DNA from: Edaphochlamys debaryana | Lineage: Eukaryota; Chlorophyta; Chlorophyceae; Chlamydomonadales | Assembly (NCBI GenBank): GCA_016858145.1 | Contig: JAEHOE010000102.1 | Location: 248,001 to 312,000 of the forward strand | Length of the DNA: 64,000 nt | Reading direction: 5' to 3' | Shown here: positions 21,031 through 56,712 of the stretch, in pieces | Numbering within the stretch: the first letter of the stretch is position 1 | Layout of the letters: each line of letters opens with the position of its first letter | Position numbers and translations under genes: made by a program | Notes under the pieces: model-generated | Told to the model about the DNA's origin: nothing | The model's input: the letters and a program-made list of their open reading frames with translations, nothing else | The model's database searches: none

Positions 21031-21488
21031 CAGTGTTGCTATCTTGTTTCGATTTCAAGAAAAAGTTTACGTCGGTTGTAACTTTTCCGGCAAAGTTGGG
21101 CGGAAAGATCTGGGCAAATAGAACATTTTGCTTGGAATCCGCGTAAAAGTTCTGTCCGCCAAAGAACTTTTGAGCTCTGCGCTGCCCAAAAGTTCTGGGT
21201 GCAGAGCCAGCCCGGGGGGTATGGGCCCTTGGGGACTGCTGCGGGTTAAGTGAAAGACGGTGTGCCACAATGCGCTGGCCGCCAAACGTAGGGTTGTGGC
21301 GGGCGCATGGGGGTCTGGGCGGGGGAGGTGCCTGCTGTAGCCACGAACCCCACCTCGAAGGGGTCGGGGACGTAACGTTTGACCCATACTGGCGCAAAAA
21401 GATCTGTCCGCCAGCGAACATTTCGGCCCAGCCGACCGGGAAAGATCTGGGATTTTCGAAACCCTCGCCACGGAAGATAGCAACGCTG
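21031..21488. mobile_element. Non-autonomous hAT-like DNA transposon (MITE)
   Basis: The element is 458 bp. Its ends are CAGTGTTGCTATCTT (21031-21045) and, read in reverse complement, CAGCGTTGCTATCTT (21488-21474): 15 bp with one mismatch. It is flanked by the direct repeat CCTGAGAG at 21023-21030 and 21489-21496. An 8-bp duplication and ends starting CAG are the known signature of the hAT superfamily. Subterminal AAAGATCTG and AAGTTCTG motifs recur inside (about 21104, 21149, 21186, 21397, 21440), as is usual for hAT transposase-binding regions. No transposase frame is present, so it must have been moved in trans. Confidence 0.88.
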
Positions 21489-46030: not shown

Positions 46031-48072
46031 CAGGCCAGAGCGAGTGTAGGAGCAGACACCCAGTCTGCCGCGCACTGACCAGGTTTTGGATGGCAACCGC
46101 GGTAGCGTGGCCTATACCCTGCAGGCCCTGACCCGGTTGTGGAGACGTAGCCCCACTGACAGCCAATTGAACCGGCGGAACCGAAGCTGCCATTGTGTGA
46201 AGGGATGCTCGCAGGAGCCAGGGAGTCGGAGGCACGGTGACTAGCCGGCCAGCCTTAGATACCGAACCGAAAGCCAGTGCCAGTATGGTGACTGGGTTCG
46301 GACCTTCGAAGCCTGAGGATGCTTAATTGGGAACGGACAAGTCAGCACTGCGCCTCACATTACTGTTGCTTGGAGCGCCATTGACGCAATCTGCACTTGG
46401 CATTGTTCTTGTAGCTGCTTCGCCGGTAGCGTTGAGGAGGTGAAGGCGTACCCTCGGAGGCGCGGGCGTGTGCTCAGTGCTTGAGTGCGCTGCCCCGGTG
46501 CTGCCCGGCCTCGCGGGGTTTGGGGCTTAGGCCTTTTCCCTGTTGGGTCCGCGCAGAGGGCGAGTAGCACAGACAGAGAGAATGGGCGGGTGGCGTCCCT
46601 GAGAAGGCCCATAATAAGCCACATGCATGGCCAGGTGGTGTGAGGGGCGATCCAGCGTGTGACTCAAGCCTGAACAGGCCTTTCATCTTGTCCTTGGTGG
46701 AGTGTTTCTTGGCTTTACTTGCATACGGGCTTGCCAGGGTAATGTTGCCTTTCCTTTCATCGGATACGAGGGCACTGTCATCGCTTAGTAGCTAGCGCGC
46801 CTGGACAACGGCAGCGAGGCAGGCGGCGGACTGGAGGGTCTGTGGCGGCAGTGGAGGGGCGCCCTTGCTATCAAGCATTGCATGCAGTTTTGCAGGTCAC
46901 TTCCCTACGGGCATGACATTTTGGCGTGCAAGGGTTGAGCGCAACCGTGGCATTCGAGGGTATTGCACGGGGGCAGTCGCGTCAGGCAGTGGGCTGTGGG
47001 CTGTGGGGAATTATAGGCGACTGCAGGTTTGTGTGTCACGTTTGACAGACTTGTGGGCAGTGCCCCAGGCGCACAGGAGCAGGTTGGGCGTGGGTTGATG
47101 GTGTGGGAGCTGAGGCCCGAGCTGTTGGTCCTTAGGTCTGATCTCTAACATCTGCGGCAAGCTCTAGAGATGGGTTGGTGATGTGCCGGTGATAGCAGCG
47201 CGGTGCAGACCTACGGCGGGCCGGTCCAGGGTGGGGTCGTGGAGCTTAAGGGCCATGAAAGCTATGGGGGCAAACTGGGGCAAAGTGAATTAGTCTCTCA
47301 CACGCCCGGCCGGTTGAAATGAGAGCTGAGGCCCGAGCTGTTGGCTCTCAAGAAATGCACTTGCGGGCAAAGGTGTCTGTAAAATCGAGCGCGTAGGAGT
47401 TCGGCCTCTGCACAGCCCCCGTGTAAGTAAGTGGGCCCCGCCCGCCTATTCGCTTGTTGAGTTATTTGTCGTCGACCATGCATGCCGGGCATGCCATGCC
47501 TCTGGGCCTGCGAGCCCTTCCTTCCCTGTTGGCGGTACTAAGGGGTCCAGTGGTCCGGCAGTCCCAGGCCACGTCAGCGCCAAGTCATGGGCGTGGTGAC
47601 TTAGCTACATGCCTGGACGCCCTCAACTCCATCAGCCTGTGTGAGCTCTCTCTCTCTCCTGGTGAGTGGTGACCCCTTCCCAGAGAGAGAGATAGGGGGG
47701 CACAGCAGGACAGGGGTACTGCAACGTGCAACCAGGCCCACGCTGGGCCCGTTAGGCCCGGCCGCTTGGTGCAGGGTGCAGGGTGCTTCGTGCCTGACCT
47801 CAGGCAACCTCAGCCAAGTCGCCCAGACAAAGCTGTTCCGCATGGCTCCTACCTGCAACGCTTGCAACGTCACAGACGGTGCCCGGGCAAGCCCTCGCCC
47901 CCGACCTCCCCCCTCGACCCCCGCCGTCCGCACGCAGGCCCGCCCTGGCCCGCTTTAGGGCTCGCACTCGCAAAACCCGATCACTTCCCAACGCTACCAT
48001 CCAGTCGCATCAATTAGATAGGGAGCGCGGCACTCTTGCCTATTGCCGTGCACACGCAAGACCTCGAAACGC
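46031..48072. other. Intergenic between MT-D and LBL-1
   Basis: No supported gene. A TTTGGGGCTTAGG-like tract near 46518-46531 resembles, in reverse, a tract near 1880; its meaning is unclear. Confidence 0.45.
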
Positions 48073-48321
48073 GCGACGACGGTGCGACTGCATCTGCGCC
48101 GCTCAAGCATCCCGGCCCATCTGCCGCTCTTTTAAGAGTGCCTGCCGTGTCGCGCTGCATAGTTAATTACACACTTGGCCAGCTGCACCGCTCTCCTCCC
48201 CATCAACGTTGACTGTGCAAGCTTTCGCTTCTTGCCAGCTGTCTCGCGTTGACCTTGCTGCTGCGGCAAGCGCCTGCGGCCGCTCCCTCTCCCACCTACT
48301 AGCTGTCGATATCGATCGACG
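48073..48321 (+). promoter_or_regulatory. Duplicated promoter/5' UTR block of LBL-1
   Basis: 249 bp ending at the start codon, matching 51126-51374 upstream of LBL-2 with only about four mismatches as I read them. It contains CTCTTTTAAGAGTG (possible TATA-like element within a short palindrome), TAGTTAATTACAC, and TCGATATCGATCGACG immediately before the ATG. Confidence 0.8.
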
Positions 48322-48996
48322 ATGACTGAGGAGACCAAGGCCCCGGAGCAGGCTTACACGCCTGCTCCCGATGCTCCAGTCGCGCCTCCTCCCGCGCCCG
48401 TGGCCCCTCCTCCGCCTCCAGCGGTCGGCGTACCTCCTTCCCAGCCAGCGTACGCCGGTCCGCCGGCGCCCCAGGCGATGGCGGTCCAGCAGCCCGCGAC
48501 GCAGGCTTCGTACAGCAATGGTGTCTGCATGTGCGGCGGGACGCTGGGCCCCGAGCGCTGGACGCTGACGGCGTGGGTGCTGTGCCTGTTCTGCTGTGAG
48601 TCCCGTTTCGCGGCATCTGGCATCTCGACCATCGCTTTTCGCTTTTCAGCGGAACCGTAGGCCGCGCTAGCGAACCTCGCAGGCTGACAAAGCCCACTAC
48701 AGGCTATCATACTTGCGGGGGTCTGGCATGGCGTGCGGCTGGACGACTGCCGTGCCCGGGGTCCGGCGGGGTGTTCTACCTCGCGAGTGTTCGCCTCATC
48801 TCCGGCCCCTCGGCGTGTGACCAACCTCTGCCCCAGCCCCTTCGACTTGAGCTGTTGCCCCGGAGGACCTGCCACCTGACCTGTGCCGTCGCCCCGACCG
48901 TCCCCCACAGGCCCCTTCAACTTCTGCTACCCCTACTGCATGCCGGCGCAACGGACCTGCACGGCGTGCGGCAACGTCGCCTACAAGGCCGTCTAA
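48322..48996 (+). CDS. Small proline-rich LITAF/BRI3-like membrane protein, LBL-1
   Basis: Exons 48322-48595 and 48911-48996; 119 residues. The first about 65 residues are Pro/Ala-rich (starting MTEETKAPEQAYTPAP) with no signal peptide. The C-terminal part is Cys-rich: GVCMCGGTLG, then the hydrophobic WTLTAWVLCLFCC, then PFNFCYPYCM, then RTCTACG. A cytosolic proline-rich tail, a CxC or CxxC pair, a membrane-inserted hydrophobic stretch and a second CxxC pair is the layout of LITAF/CDIP and BRI3 proteins, which bind zinc and sit on endosomal membranes. I infer a similar monotopic anchor, but sequence identity is low. Unlike LBL-2 it has no introns within the proline-rich part. Confidence 0.8.
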
Positions 48997-51125
48997 GCAT
49001 GCAACACAAGACCGCTGCTGCCACCGCGCAGCGTGCTGAGGACCGTGCGAAGGCACATGCCGTTGTTGTCCAACGAGCGTCGTGTGCTGCTGCCGCCAGC
49101 CCGCGTATGATTAATGTGCTGTAGTGCCTAGGAAGCGTGCACGGCACTGTGCGCGGTACCAAGGTGGAGGGCTGAGGGGCCGGAGTTAGCTGTAGGCAGG
49201 GGTAGGGCCCTGGCTTGAGGCGACGGCTGGTGTTGGGGCACGTTCATTGTGGGCGAGTGAACACCATGTTTCGTGTGCGAAGCCCAGCGTATAGCAACTA
49301 GGCAGTTCAGTCGATGGGCGTGCGGACTTGTTATGACCCAATTCATGTCCGGACGATTCTCCGCTCTTGGTGATACGAGGGTTTTGGGGCCGGGAGGACG
49401 CGAGAATTTGTCCGGACGCGGGCATCAACCTGCAAGTGCGAGCGGGGTCAGGAAGGGGGCAGGAGAATGCGGTGATATGCCTTGTGAGTCCCGTGTGGCA
49501 GACTCCTAGTACCGGTGCCGTGGTGTAAAGGCCGAAGGAACACCCAGGAGAACGGGTTCAATTCTGCCAGCCCCACACTTAAGCCGTGGCTGGTGGCGAA
49601 ACGCCGCACAGAGGCTTGGCGCCCGCCAGTCTGTTGAGGATGTGGAGGGCGAGACTGGATGACCCCAGGCCACAAGACAGCCGAGCAGATATGGCTCGTT
49701 GACGGGGCTCAAGCTTCCAGCCAGCAGCACGGCGTACAGCAGGTGGCCACACCCAGGCGTAACTCCGTCTCCGTCGTCAAGGCACGGGGCCGTGGGTCCG
49801 GGTCCAGCTGACTAGAGGCGGGCCCCTGCAGGGCTTCTCGGCTTTGCTTGCACCCGAAGACCGGGCTCAGGGCCTGCGGCTGGCTGGGGCAAGGCTCATT
49901 CTCCCCACCCCCTCTAGCCCCCATGTGGGAAGCTTAAGATTTGGGCCTCCGGGGTCGAAGCCGTGCTGACCCCTGTGCTGACAGCGGCGACCCTCTGTGG
50001 GGCTGCCCGGCGCCCAGGGGCGGCGCGCTGGCGACCGAGTGGGACTTACGGTGCCCTTGCCGTGTGCCGCTTACACCGCTCGCAACACCGCGTCGGCAGC
50101 ATCCCGCGCAACCCCTGACACTGTGAGGTTTGCTGCGGCCTGCAGGGGACACTGGCTGGGGCCAGCGGGCCCGGGGGCTACTGCCTGGCATGATGATCTA
50201 CACCCTTGCCGCTGCCCACCCCTATCCCTCCTATCCAGTCTACCGAATTAGGACTGCGCCCTGGCCTTGCTTTTCGCGTAACCTCGTCCCCGTTTCTCAT
50301 TCCCCCAGCCTCCCCGGCTCATGCAGATGCACGCGCCTGCTTTGCATACACACACGCTTTACCCCTCTGCCCTCGGCTAGCTGCACGTTGCATTGACTCC
50401 TCTGCCCCCTCCCCTACATCTGCCGGTTGGAGGGTGGCCTTTTGTCCCCTCTTTCTTTCAGGTGTCACAGGACATAGGAGTCAGACGGCCCTGGCCGTCA
50501 CTCGCCTGCGGCCGCATCGCTCTGCCTGCCCCCTTGCCCCCTGCCCCTGCCCTGTATCCCTTACCTTCCCTGGTGCCTGGTGGTGCCTGGGGCTGCATCT
50601 GCCCCCTCTGTGACTGTCTGGACCCTGGAGAGTGGTGGGCTTGGGCAAGCCTTTGGTCAGCGCTTTCTGAGCAGGCCCTTGCGCGTCATTACCCACTTTG
50701 TGTCTGTCGGTTGGACGCATCGATTAGCATAACCGGGAAACGCACGCCAACCGGTTGCACATCCAATACTGCAATACGTATGCGTTGGGCTGATAGAAGC
50801 CCAACGCATACATGTTGGAGAAATGCTGGCCCACACACAGTCTTCACCTGCCGCGGTACTGCGACGCATCGAGGTTCTACGTAAAGAAAGGTATTCTGAT
50901 AGACTGGTTGCTGGGTGAGTCCATCAGCCAGCGTGAAGGAGACTCGGGCTCGGGCATGTGCGGGACGTCGGTTGGGGAGGGGTGGCCTGGGGTGGGGGGC
51001 GGGGGGTGGCGTTGCGTGCCACGCTACGGCCTGCAATCCCAGCGAGCCCAAGTGGACTGAGCGGCGAGCGCTGCGCTCTTGCCTATCCCCGAGCACACGC
51101 AAGACTCTCGCAACTCCGCCAACTC
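48997..51125. other. Intergenic between LBL-1 and LBL-2
   Basis: No supported gene. It contains the 24-bp dispersed sequence at 50374-50397 and the perfect 14-bp hairpin at 50778-50811. Confidence 0.45.
50778..50811. repeat. Perfect 14-bp hairpin
   Basis: Arms GTATGCGTTGGGCT (50778-50791) and its complement (50798-50811) with a 6-nt loop. No gene association is apparent; it lies 0.56 kb upstream of LBL-2. Confidence 0.85.
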
Positions 51126-51374
51126 GCGACGACGGTGCGACTGCATCTGGGCCGCTCAAGCATCCCGGCCCATCTGCCGCTCTTTTAAGAGTGCCTGCCG
51201 TGTCGCGCTGCATAGTTAATTACACACTTGGCCAGCTGCACCGCTCTGATCCCCATCAACGTTGACTGTGCAAGCTTTCGCTTCTTGCCAGCTGTCTCGC
51301 GTTGACCTTGCTGCTGTGGCAAGCGCCTGCGGCCGCTCCCTCTCCCACCTACTAGCTGTCGATATCGATCGACG
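51126..51374 (+). promoter_or_regulatory. Duplicated promoter/5' UTR block of LBL-2
   Basis: The counterpart of 48073-48321, about 98% identical by eye. Similarity falls off upstream and also within the coding exon, so this block is the best-conserved part of the duplication. Confidence 0.8.
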
Positions 51375-52169
51375 ATGACTGAGGAGACCAAGGCCCCGGA
51401 GCAGGCTTACACGCCTGCTCCCGATGCTCCGGTCGCGCCTCCTCCCGCGCCCGTGGCCCCTCCTCCGCCTCCAGCAGCCGCTATGCCTCCTCCTCAGCCA
51501 GCGTACGCCGGTCCGCCGGTGCCCCAGGTCGGGTCTGGCAAAGGGTGATTAACTGCGTTAGCCCATTGCAGCCGCGTCGTAAGCCTCAAGCTAAGGTATT
51601 ATACTTCGTAACATTCTCCTCGCGTTGAAATTTCTGTGGCCGCTTGCCTGACCCGACCCAGGCGATGGCGGTCCAGCAGCCGGCGACCCAGGCAAACTAT
51701 GCGTGAGACAGTAGACTTGACTATGCAGGGGTCCAACGGGGGGTTGGTCCCTGTCCCTGTCCCCTCCCTGCCGGCCCCTTCGGGCCCTAGGCCAACAGCC
51801 TACCTGTGCTACCCCCCCACCCATACAGCAACGGAGTGTGCGTGTGCGGCGGGACGCTGGGCCCCGAGCGCTGGACGCTGACGGCGTGGGTGCTGTGCCT
51901 GTTCTGCTGTGAGTCTCGGGTTTGACTCCGTTCATGCGAGCCGGTCAATGCGGGCCTTCGCTGCTTCGAGGCCTCGGCCTAGGGCAGGACCGGGAGGCAC
52001 CGTTCAACATCCCTTCGACTGGCACTGCTGCCCCGAAGGACCTGCCACCTGACCTGTACCGTCGCCCCGACCGTCCCCCACAGGCCCCTTCAACTTCTGC
52101 TACCCATACTGCATGCCGGCGCAGCGCACCTGCACGGCGTGCGGTCGCGTGGCCTTCAAGGCCGTCTAA
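51375..52169 (+). CDS. Small proline-rich LITAF/BRI3-like membrane protein, LBL-2
   Basis: Exons 51375-51527, 51662-51702, 51829-51908, 52084-52169; 119 residues, the same length as LBL-1. The sequence parallels LBL-1: Pro/Ala-rich N-terminus, GVCVCGGTLG, WTLTAWVLCLFCC, PFNFCYPYCM, RTCTACG, ending FKAV. The last intron is at the same position and phase as in LBL-1 and LBL-3 (inside a Cys codon before PFNFC). The first two introns are absent from LBL-1. Intron 1 (51528-51661) is bounded by inverted repeats and appears to be an inserted transposon-type element; see the separate entry. Function is inferred from layout only. Confidence 0.82.
51528..51657 (+). mobile_element. Introner: intron formed by a short TIR element in LBL-2
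   Basis: The element starts GTCGGGTCTGGCAA (51528-51541) and ends TTGCCTGACCCGAC (51644-51657): 14-bp terminal inverted repeats with one mismatch. It is flanked by the direct repeat CCAG (51524-51527 and 51658-51661). The 5' splice site GT is the first two bases of the element. The 3' splice site AG is the end of the duplicated target. LBL-1 carries the uninterrupted site with a single CCAG (48471-48474) in the same reading frame. The internal sequence is non-coding. This matches the known mechanism by which DNA transposons generate introns in other algae. Confidence 0.85.
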
Positions 52170-53407
52170 GGGCGTAACACGTCGTCATAAAGACTCTCAC
52201 CGGCGGCATCATCTGACGGCATTGATACTCCCTTGGTGTGATCCCGACTGCAAGATGGCTGGTGCGCAAGGGGGCTGACACGTGCTTGACTTCTGAGGGT
52301 CTGTCTAGGACCAGCGCGCGGGGCTAATCGAAAGGGCATGACGACACTAGTGATCTACACGAGTAGAGGGGTGACGTGATGGTGGACGGGACAACCAGAT
52401 GGACTGAAGACGGACTCCTTGACTCAGGTAGGAGCCCAAGGCAGCATTACGGTAGCACTGTGAGCACCGGTAGGCAGGTTGGATGGTCCATACAGTCAGA
52501 TGCCAACGCAAGGGATGAGGTGGTGTATTCAGTCCTCGATAGGTGTAGAAGCTTGGACTGTGACTACAGGTGGTTCATGGCTAACTAATGCAAAGGAGCT
52601 GGTCCATGTAAGATCTACTGCAGATTCTGCCTTGTCAGTTCCTTGGCGATGCGTGGGCCTTAAATTCCCTGCCAGACACAGTCTGAGCGCTCACCAGTCG
52701 ATGAGGGAAGGGGGACCCGGGGACTAGTCGATGGGGGCCGGAGCAGTGAGGCTATCTACCGGTAGCACCACACGCAGCGGTCCACGCGGGGGTGAGGGAG
52801 TGGAGCAGCGGACTGCTCACAGCGAACTTGGGCGAGGTATGGCTCCACGTGCTCCACGGGTAGTGCAGCGCGTGCAGCGCACGACAGGTAGTGCGGGTTG
52901 GCCATCACGACAAGGGCTGAGCCGGTCAACGGCGAGGGGGCAAGTGTTCCAGCGTGTGGAGGCCCAGAGGGGGTTGTTACTGACTGTGGGACATGCGGAC
53001 TGAACTCACTTCCCTGCCAGCCAGGGGTTCCCCTGGTTCCAGCGTGCGGAGGCGACAACGGGGCGTACACGGGGCGCGGCAGGACGCGATGGTGTTCAAT
53101 GGAGGCCCAGATCATGACATGCAGGCCCGTGAGCGCCATACGCACATATGCGCACACACACATGATTAGCTGGCAGTCTGTAGCAGCTCACAACAAGGCT
53201 CAGCAAAGGCCTCGCCTCGGGACATTATTATCGCACCTCAACTGTATCGGGCGTGCCAGCAGCCTCGCCATACGGGAACTATAGAGCAGCACGCCAAGGT
53301 GTCAGCTTGTGAGGTTCGCTCGACGACTGGACCGATTGGAGCTTGAACATTTAGGTTTGAAGGCGCGCACCTTGCACTTTGCAGTGCTGCCCTGAACTTC
53401 GGCACCT
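52170..53407. other. Intergenic between LBL-2 and LBL-3
   Basis: No supported gene. It contains a duplicated TTCCAGCGTG(T/C)GGAGGC motif (about 52948 and 53037) and AGTCGATG(A/G)GGG repeats near 52695-52735. Confidence 0.45.
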
Positions 53408-55168
53408 ATGGCAGATCAGCAGCCGCCAGCTAATCAGATGGCGCCGGGCTATGGCGCGCCGTCTGCCCCGCCTGTGGCTCCGGCACCCAGCTACTCCTCC
53501 CCCAGCCCCTACGCACCAGGACCCAGCTACTCGGCCCCCTATCCTCAGCCCGAGGGCAAGGATCCGTACGCCGCGGCACCGCCGCCCGCAACTGGCACGC
53601 CCGTCTCTGGCTATCCCACGCAGCAGCCATACCCGCCGCCGCAAGCCCAGCCCCCGCCCGCTGCGTACGCCCCGCCTCAACAGCCCGGCGCTTATCCGGC
53701 TCCACCTCCGGGCTACCCTCCCCAGGCGGCGCCCTACCCACCCCAGGCCCAGCCGCCTTACCCGGCGCAGCAGCCGTACGCCCAGCCCCAGCCGCAGCAG
53801 CCCTACCCGTACCCCCAGCAGCCGGCTCCGCAGATAATCTACGCGGCACCCAACCCGCCCCAACCCTACCCGGCAAGTCCCACCACTGCCACTCGCCACG
53901 CTATTAACATGAACTCAGGGCCCCATACATGCGCACAATCCGTTTGTCTCAACCGTCTCTCCACCTGACCCACAAAGCGCCAATTTCCTTCCTCAATCCC
54001 CGCTCCTTGCTCCCGTGTGCCTGCAACACAGGCTAATGTGGGCTACGCGGGCGGACAGTGCACGTGCGGCGGCACGCTGGGCGCAGCGCACTGGACCCTC
54101 ATGGCGTGGCTCATCTGCCTCGTGTGCTGTGAGTGCTGGGGCCGAGCCGCGAGGGGCGGGAGGGCGGGGGTGGACTGCTGCGTGGCTTCGTGTGGGCGGC
54201 CCCGGGGCGTGCCTCATCGAGGCGGGGTGGGGCGCTATTGGAGCGCGCGCGTAGGGGCGGCCGCTCGAGAGTCGAGACCACCGGAGCGACCGACGGACGA
54301 AAGCGGAAGCTGGAGTCTGCCCTGTCTCAAGCTGAGGCAACCACGAGCCTACCGGCTGGGGTCGAGACCGTAGTCTGCGGCGGCACTGAAACCGTTGGGG
54401 GGGGGTGGCGTCATGCTACAGCACCGCACAGGGCTTGTGGCAAAAGCCAGCGGAGCTCTTGAAGCGCGACGCTGTGTATCATACCAGAACAACGGGGGTC
54501 GGTCGCAATGTGGGTCGGCCGTGAGCGGTGCGTTCGAGCTAGAGCCGACTCAGCAGCACTGAAGAATTGAGCTGTGGGCACCAACCAGCTTCTTGTGAAG
54601 CCATCCAGTGGCCAGCCGATGGCCAGCCTTGCTGCTGCTTGAGCGGGGGGCGGGGGAGGCTCATGGTGTCATGGTGGGCCGATGTGGGTTGAGCTGGCGC
54701 AACACCAGATGCTTTGGAGGGCCCCATCTTTCGCGCGAGTGTCTCCATCGCTTGGGGTGGATGCGGGTTGGCGGGGCCTGCAGTGACTGGACGGTTGAAG
54801 CAGAAGCCAGTTGCAGTGCCAGACGCGTCGGGATGCGCGTGCCTGAGCATGTTGGCATCGCTTTGGGCGGCCGTGTGCTTTCCTGTAGGGTGCATCCCTT
54901 GCCCTGCAGTTTCCATGCAGACCTGACCTAAGCCCGTGCGACCTCCACCCACTCGCAGGCCCCTTCAACTTCTGCTACCCGTACTGCATGGTACGTGTAG
55001 GGCCGGGGGAAGGCACGCGGGCTTCGGCGCTGCATCTGAGCATGGGAACGCGAGCAAACTGCTTGGCGCGGCTGTTGCAGCGGCTGAACGGCACCAACCC
55101 ACATGCCCATCCCGCAGCCGATGAAGCGCGTCTGCAAGCAGTGCGGGAAACTCTACTACAAACCCTAA
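53408..55168 (+). CDS. Proline-rich LITAF/BRI3-like membrane protein, LBL-3
   Basis: Exons 53408-53872, 54032-54128, 54959-54990, 55118-55168; about 214 residues. The N-terminal 155 residues are rich in Pro, Tyr, Gln and Ala with many PYPxQ and YPPQ units. The C-terminal module is GQCTCGGTLG, WTLMAWLICLVCC, PFNFCYPYCM, KRVCKQCGKLYYKP. This last part is the closest of the three to the CxxCG ending of BRI3/LITAF proteins. Intron 1 has a GC donor (CCG|GCAAGT); the ORF reads into the intron and stops at 53966 if it is not removed. Intron 2 is unusually long at 830 bp. It is more diverged than LBL-1/2 and has no copy of their shared promoter block. Confidence 0.8.
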
Positions 55169-56712
55169 GCCGGTGTGCCTCGTACGGGTGGTCACTCCGC
55201 CGTACCAATGACAATCGTACCGGCCGCCTGATTCTACATGAACTGCTGTGAGCATTGCTTGTGGCGGCAGCTGTGGGCCCTGGGTGGTGAAGATCAAGGC
55301 AGGGGTCAAGCGATGTTGAACCGCCTGCATGCTCATGGGCTTTTGGATTTCCAATGAATTGGCTCGTCAAGGGGGCTTGTGAATCCGCGCGTGTTCTGAA
55401 CAGGGAGTATATTACGATCTTCGGTGCATGAGGGGGAAGATACTGCAGGTGTCAGTAGGGCACCCGTCCGTGAGCTAATCATGCTGGTGCTTACCGTTGC
55501 TAGCGGCTGGGCGTGATGCTCCAAGCCGAGCGACAAGCGGGGGAGGGGCAAGCGGCGTGGGGGCCGCGGGTGATGCGAGGACAAGGTAGATAGCCGTCGT
55601 GGAGCTGCGGTGAGAGTGAGGGGGGAGGGCCCAGAGGTGACGTGGAGGTACTACAGTACGAGGACACTTGACGGGGCTGTCTCTGGGATGTAGGATTGCG
55701 GCCGTATCCTTTGCTCTGAGATTTGTGTCGACTGTGGACGTTATCATCCTTGCTCCTGCCACTGAGAGCTGGGAGCTGCGTCTTTGGGCCTGGGGCCACC
55801 CACGCGCCTATTCTTGCTGACGGGCGGGGCGGGGGTACGATGTGCCCTGGCGGCCCCAACCCAAGCAGCCTGTGTAAGCAATGGCTGTGATCCCCGTGTC
55901 AAAGCTCCTGTAACGCGCGGTGTGCCGGGGCGGACAGCCGAGGGGCCCCCCACGCAGACCCCACTCCCGTCGGTAGCGCGTGACGTGGTTGAAGGGGGCG
56001 CAAGGCAACGCCTGCGTCGCTGTTGGCTGTGTTGCCACACGAGCAAGAGCAGAGGTAAACCGGGGGCTCGGAAGCACACACATTGGGACCTCACAAGCCG
56101 ACGTGCCCGCAGGCAGTACGGAAACCGGCAGGCGAAGCGGTGCGAGGAAGCGGCCCTCGGCGCGCACTCGCACCTCAGTCGCCACTGGTCCCAGAGAGGT
56201 AGTTTTTGTGCTCTCTTCCTTGTGCACTAGGCTGGCGATGAAACACAGCAGGCGTAACCCCAGCTTCGTGCGCGTCGTCCGACGTCCTACCGTGTCGGAC
56301 CAGCGCGATGACGGGCAATGCGCGGGGGCCCGCCTACTTAAAGGCCCTCACCAATTGCCAATCATCAAATAGAACACATTCTAAGTACTCATTGAACGAC
56401 TCCGTATCAGCGCATAACTCGGCCAAACGCGTACCCCCGAAGTTTTTATAGGCGTGCCTTTTGCCCAGTTTCTGAATAACAACAACTTCTATTTACATGC
56501 TGATAGATAGCGACAGGCCTGCGGCGCCCCTCTGAAGGTAGGCGTTCGGTCGGCGAAACCGGCTGATATTCACGGACTGTTTGTGAGCGACACCGGGTAG
56601 AGACGCATACACGTACCTCCAAACTACTGCTAAAATCACGCAGACGGCTGATGGCGTGCCGTCGACGCGGGGCGCATGCTGATTCACACCATCCTACCCT
56701 GCAGGTCCCAAG
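55169..56712. other. Intergenic between LBL-3 and CP-1
   Basis: No supported gene. The right-hand end is less GC-rich and holds a possible TATA element (GTTTTTATAGG, about 56442-56452). A possible 5'-UTR intron acceptor (TGCAG before GTCCCAAG) lies just before the CP-1 start codon, and the same sequence precedes CP-2. Confidence 0.5.

Follow-up and report, generated by a model that had tools for sequence, protein, structure and literature searches.

The window analysed here is a 64-kb stretch of Edaphochlamys debaryana DNA (positions 248001-312000 of the 478,567-bp contig C102). It carries the paralogous genes LBL-1 and LBL-2 and a more distant paralogue, LBL-3 (Table 1). The name LBL was coined in a first reading based on the sequence only, referred to in the following as the initial annotation. 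The LBL-1 protein is identical to HYH03_014310 of E. debaryana. Apart from LBL-3, the genome gave no further clear paralogue, only one weaker match (C16, E 0.006). Regarding relatives, the nearest Pfam family is BRI3, far under its cut-off (12.7 vs 25.9 bits), and protein searches, one of which scored only the 7,993 candidates with the most shared words, found none outside E. debaryana at E ≤ 1e-3. A comparison of LBL-2 exon 1 with a phage collection gave no match, which is uninformative.

Table 1. Positions in the window of the LBL genes and of the parts of LBL-2 intron 1
Feature	Position	Strand	Remarks
LBL-1 paralogue	48322-48996	+	exons 48322-48595, 48911-48996; 119 aa
LBL-1 unoccupied site, single CCCAGG	48470-48475	+	CCAG at 48471-48474
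LBL-2 gene	51375-52169	+	predicted exons 51375-51527, 51662-51702, 51829-51908, 52084-52169; 119 aa
LBL-2 intron 1, predicted	51528-51661	+	134 nt, phase 0
MITE-like element, 4-bp parse	51528-51657	+	130 bp
MITE-like element, 6-bp parse	51529-51656	+	128 bp
Left terminal inverted repeat, GTCGGGTCTGGCAA	51528-51541	+	its start is the GT donor
Right terminal inverted repeat, TTGCCTGACCCGAC on the + strand	51644-51657	-	
Direct repeat CCCAGG, upstream copy	51523-51528	+	final G is also base 1 of the donor GT
Direct repeat CCCAGG, downstream copy	51657-51662	+	provides the AG acceptor
LBL-3, more distant paralogue	53408-55168	+	predicted model

Structure and predicted splicing of LBL-2 intron 1

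The first intron of LBL-2 contains a MITE-like element whose two arms, GTCGGGTCTGGCAA and TTGCCTGACCCGAC, are complementary at 13 of 14 positions. This bears out the initial annotation, which had described a 130-bp element in the same place with 14-bp inverted repeats and one mismatch. It had also given the flanking direct repeat as the 4-bp CCAG. Both copies of CCAG are present (51524-51527 and 51658-51661), but they form the inner part of a longer repeat, the maximal direct repeat around the element being the 6-bp CCCAGG. Because of this, two symmetric parses can be drawn, either CCAG with 14-bp arms or CCCAGG with 13-bp arms. The target duplication may comprise 4 to 6 bp, its boundary with the inverted repeat being ambiguous. 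The further claim that the element supplies the GT donor and the target the AG acceptor holds in the 4-bp parse only: in the 6-bp parse the donor G and the AG acceptor are both target DNA and the element gives only the T. Among the features of a MITE, terminal inverted repeats and a target-site duplication (4-6 bp) are thus present. The G+C content of the element is 52%, vs 65% in the window and 65-66% in the other three introns of the LBL-1/LBL-2 pair.

Removal of the predicted intron restores the 119-aa reading frame, giving a product 92% identical to LBL-1, and its retention leads to a stop at codon 58, after six element codons. The splice sites, as predicted, are drawn from the element and the duplicated target. 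The other two LBL-2 donors read GTGAG; compared to them, the donor of intron 1, CAG/GTCGGG (the slash marks the splice junction), is weaker. The acceptor reads CCCAG/G. Inside the right arm lies CTGAC, which we take from the consensus to be a possible branch point. The initial annotation had counted exact splice usage among the things seen directly. This was overstated, as the splice sites derive from the reading frame and from the alignment with the paralogue. Entry P0001 represents 2 sequences from one contig, possibly because LBL-2 was annotated as spliced, and was given no weight here. The predicted RNA fold of the intron joins its two ends at -41.5 kcal/mol, with 5 of 200 shuffles equally stable; folded as DNA, the element is equalled by 11 of 200 shuffles. 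That the element is a known RNA family was rejected, since zero matches at gathering score were found within 47501-55500.

Comparison with the LBL paralogues

At the position of intron 1, LBL-2 and LBL-1 are separated by a clean 134-bp difference. As had been annotated, the alignment shows the same codons uninterrupted in LBL-1, with CCAG in a single copy. Assuming that LBL-1 represents the unfilled state and is not a gene that lost the intron, the element was inserted into exon sequence at an unoccupied site.

The promoters of the two genes had been described as about 98% identical. This figure stands for the upstream region, where 4 of 242 nt differ, but the identity is local and does not extend over the coding sequence that bears the insertion. 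The 98% tract covers 48080-48423 and 51133-51476, i.e. the 5' flank plus the first 102 coding bases (2/102 differences in CDS nt 1-102; 1 of 25 fourfold sites). In CDS nt 103-360, which holds the insertion site, 29 of 258 positions differ (about 89% identity), including 9 of 45 fourfold sites. The high identity therefore appears to be a local 5' mosaic, perhaps left by gene conversion. Given the 11% divergence of the rest of the coding sequence, the duplication of LBL-1 and LBL-2 is not very recent and is older than the 98% suggests.

This age fits an alternative in which the insertion predates the duplication and LBL-1 later lost the intron, by cDNA conversion or by precise excision. LBL-2 intron 2 is also absent from LBL-1, so that two neighbouring introns are missing together, as replacement by a cDNA tract predicts. 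However, LBL-1 has kept its last intron, and the last intron is the one most exposed to cDNA-mediated loss. Moreover, the site of intron 2 is unlike a clean cDNA join, in contrast to the clean site of intron 1: differences cluster at CDS 185-193 (0-based), where the LBL-1 exon reads TACAGC and LBL-2 intron 2 ends in TACAG. This contrast weakly suggests separate events rather than one cDNA replacement. LBL-3 also argues against a loss, as its predicted model has no intron at the corresponding place, although the alignment is weak there, in a proline-rich stretch. Finally, loss requires two events where gain requires one. Altogether we regard loss in LBL-1 as unlikely. Gain in LBL-2 is the simplest reading and is favoured, not proved: LBL-1 also lacks LBL-2 intron 2, and some of what distinguishes the two genes may thus go back to intron loss on the LBL-1 side.

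Two further observations concern the other introns of these genes. Firstly, the untidy junction of LBL-2 intron 2 (48504-48525 compared to 51690-51840) suggests either that an intron was lost imprecisely or that a further, different gain took place; as a copied intron it was rejected, its sequence occurring only once in the genome. Secondly, the predicted intron 1 of LBL-3 (53873-54031) has a GC-AG pair of splice sites (CCG/GCAAGT ... CACAG/GCT).

Chance expectation and search for further copies

A single arm of the element is unremarkable, with 11 matches in the window (at most 3 mismatches) where 9.7 are expected. The combination of features is rarer. Scanning the window for 14-bp arms with at most one mismatch plus a 4-bp duplication returned the LBL-2 element and one short hairpin, listed twice, and the same scan on dinucleotide-shuffled windows returned zero in 20 of 20. 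For the gap aligned to LBL-1, pairing of at least 13 of 14 bases has a chance of 4.5e-7 per placement from base composition, with 7 placements possible. These numbers bear on a non-transposon origin, in which break repair captured filler DNA with staggered ends and the inverted ends arose by chance or by fold-back synthesis. Repair of a staggered break would also be expected to leave direct repeats, and the direct repeats taken by themselves fit it, as does the single-copy state of the element, for which a family was not found (see below). Against it stands the 13/14-bp inverted repeat placed exactly at both ends, at the low chance just given, and we consider filler capture improbable.

The scan for the intron architecture was extended to 284 kb, made up of the window, two 10-kb stretches flanking it and 20 further ones of that length, and no other convincing case was found in this sample. 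With 8-bp arms and one mismatch, it returned the LBL-2 element, seven units of one tandem array (L020) and one further match (L012), compared to 0, 2 and 3 matches in shuffles; under stricter settings it returned the LBL-2 element by itself or together with the L012 match. In a broader scan, which asked for arms and a duplication of at least 4 bp, 27 rows were obtained. Many of these are GC-rich repeats, and the splice-site architecture was present in one row, the LBL-2 element. A clear excess of such introns in the sampled genome was therefore rejected. Since the sample covers about 220 kb beyond the window, the result would still be compatible with as many as roughly 2,000 cases scattered over the genome. 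The tandem array (L020 4992-9466) has a period of about 702 bp, and each unit contains a GT...AG stretch that has short inverted ends as well as a TCAG repeat. Another stretch, L029 8314-8859, comprises 546 bp, has GCCCTTTGCGCAGG / GCTGCGTAAAGGGC as its inverted ends along with a direct repeat of 7 bp (GGCTGCA), and is possibly another TIR element.

Next to these scans, the 141.9-Mb, 502-contig assembly was searched for sibling copies. The initial annotation had set beforehand a genome search with the ends and the internal sequence, naming uniqueness as the result that would count against it, and uniqueness is what was obtained: the whole element and both of its halves gave self-matches only, at E ≤ 10, and the ends were not enriched beyond controls. 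As a positive control, the same tool placed a MITE-like element of the window (21031-21488) at 40 scored places, self included, out of 123 candidates (79-100% identical), and a query with the LBL-1 intron recovered 73 bp at 92% in LBL-2. The control element is 458 bp long, with ends CAGTGTTGCTATCT / AGATAGCAACGCTG and an 8-bp duplication CCTGAGAG; many of its 40 scored places lie in arrays on C250, C272 and C328, where the spacing is often about 2.2 kb. It is presumably hAT-like.

The ends were compared to reversed controls and to a third-order Markov model trained on the same 284 kb. Paired 8-bp ends spanning 77-137 bp in total occur at 3 places in the genome, including the LBL-2 element, vs 61 with the pattern reversed as a control. 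In neither of the other places do the ends agree at more than 1 base beyond the 8 required by the pattern. Since the 61 is probably inflated by the composition of the control, more weight falls on the absence of a longer end match. The 13-bp end within one mismatch was found 274 times, vs 282 for the control (model 217 vs 270). Exact 13-bp ends number 8, of which 2 belong to the LBL-2 element itself; around each of the other six, 250-451 bp were examined and contained no inverted partner with 3 mismatches or fewer, the search reaching farther only at C205.

For the outer 20 bp, at most 3 mismatches were allowed. The left end gave 37 matches vs 61 for the control (model 23 vs 35), and because the control itself exceeds its model, the 37 lies within the scatter. 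The right end gave 100 vs 54 (model 62 vs 45), an excess that speaks against a plain statement of no enrichment until the matches from a dispersed repeat are set aside. These comprise 15 that read exactly GTCGCGTCAGGCAAGTGGGC and about 11 near variants; without them, the remainder (about 74) is near the model. The TCGCGTCAGGCAA repeat was rejected as a parent of the element, since an inverted partner was absent from all 4 of its loci that were read. Around TCGCGTCAGGCAAGTGGGC, the dispersed repeat was read at L041 209 and 388, L042 236, L043 234 and L044 242, four loci in which such a partner is lacking. Its likeness to the right arm may be either chance or distant kinship.

Variable base aside, the left 20 bp recur at one other place, G000:C205:48855-48874 (L051 2856-2875), a sequence for which composition predicts about 0.04 genome matches at one mismatch or fewer. 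Among the inverted 13-mers within 6 kb of this copy, none comes closer than 3 mismatches on the upstream side, where the order is wrong, or 4 mismatches on the downstream side. The copy is a weak lead to a possible decayed relative. The C205 recurrence and the right-end excess are also what a true multi-copy introner family would draw on, its siblings having diverged past recognition or lying in unassembled or other-strain DNA, but with about 26 of the 100 right-end matches traced to the dispersed repeat, the left end within scatter and 4 mismatches in 13 in the best downstream partner at C205, such a family is very improbable.

As a whole, several similar copies lying as introns in unrelated genes were not found, nor were the multiple genome copies usual for a MITE. 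Membership of an introner family was rejected, the element being single-copy by similarity and its ends showing no enrichment beyond the controls. The initial designation of the intron as an introner is therefore kept in part: the inverted ends, the target duplication and the empty site in a paralogue stand, and the proliferating family does not.

Proposed origin and relation to known introners

What the sequence shows directly is the pair of inverted ends, the direct repeat around them, the clean 134-bp gap against LBL-1 and a reading frame restored by removal. Taken together with the comparisons above, we think it likely that a MITE-like DNA transposon, present as a lone copy, inserted into LBL-2 and so gave rise to intron 1 as a new intron, predicted to be spliced CAG/GT...CAG/G. 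In detail, a transposase acting in trans would have cut the target at CCCAGG, which contains a CAG/G proto-splice site, with a stagger of 4-6 bp, and repair would have duplicated the target. CAG(G) would then end the upstream copy, the first base or two of the element completing the GT, and the downstream copy would provide the CAG acceptor. With the splice sites placed at the target copies, splicing would excise the element and exactly one target copy, and the mRNA would stay as it was before the insertion. In the RNA, base pairing between the inverted ends could also draw the two splice sites together.

The use of transposon ends and target duplication as splice sites is known from introns made by Ds in maize, and in the 2016 work of Huff et al. 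it is reportedly found also in the introners of Micromonas and Aureococcus. LBL-2 intron 1 appears to share this use of splice sites with all three, but no family was found here, and no partner carrying the same ends in the stretches read around the exact end matches. The insertion would thus work like an introner insertion, without demonstrated membership of an introner family. The mechanism itself is already known; having the empty site at a distance of about 3 kb makes this an unusually clear setting.

Similar structures have been described in surveys. According to Gozashti et al. 2022 (PMC9860276), the G+C content of introners is generally below that of the host exons, and TIRs and/or duplications, the latter reported earlier at 3-9 bp, are present in many families. 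In some of these one splice site is carried by the element and the duplication provides the other. Most introners do not alter the length of the mRNA, and copy numbers per genome run from 5 to over 2,000 in the families described. LBL-2 intron 1 shares this TIR/TSD structure, but with one copy compared to families of at least 5. As that survey starts from introns similar to each other, a lone intron of this kind lies outside both its definition and its reach.

In the case of Amoebophrya, introner elements carry 8-20 nt inverted and 3-5 nt direct repeats at the exon/intron boundaries and form predicted hairpins; family-specific inverted repeats were not detected, and the elements account for 11% and 30% of non-canonical introns in two strains (PMC7789003). 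LBL-2 intron 1 resembles them in its boundary repeats and hairpin, and differs in being a single GT-AG case. The symmetrical stwintrons of Hypoxylaceae and the introns derived from them also have inverted ends and occupy new positions, but their repeats are 45-55 nt long, with no target duplication (PMC8469720), in contrast to the 13-14 bp inverted repeats and the duplication found here.

The volvocine algae are rich in introns, E. debaryana having a mean of 9.31 per gene (Craig et al. 2021), and a retrogene comparison between Volvox and Chlamydomonas counted fourteen likely intron gains, its text making no mention of inverted repeats (PMC4972966). Searches of open papers by title and abstract beginning gave no report of introners in volvocine algae.

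The origin of new introns is a long-standing question, and here an insert, its duplicated target and an empty site lie about 3 kb apart in one genome, in a case that a search based on families would miss. It is tempting, if speculative and on balance doubtful, to propose that volvocine algae gain introns singly, from orphan MITE-like insertions into CAG/G proto-splice sites whose duplication supplies nearly both splice sites. If true, intron births of this kind would escape surveys for families of similar sequences, and would be visible only where a paralogue keeps the empty site.
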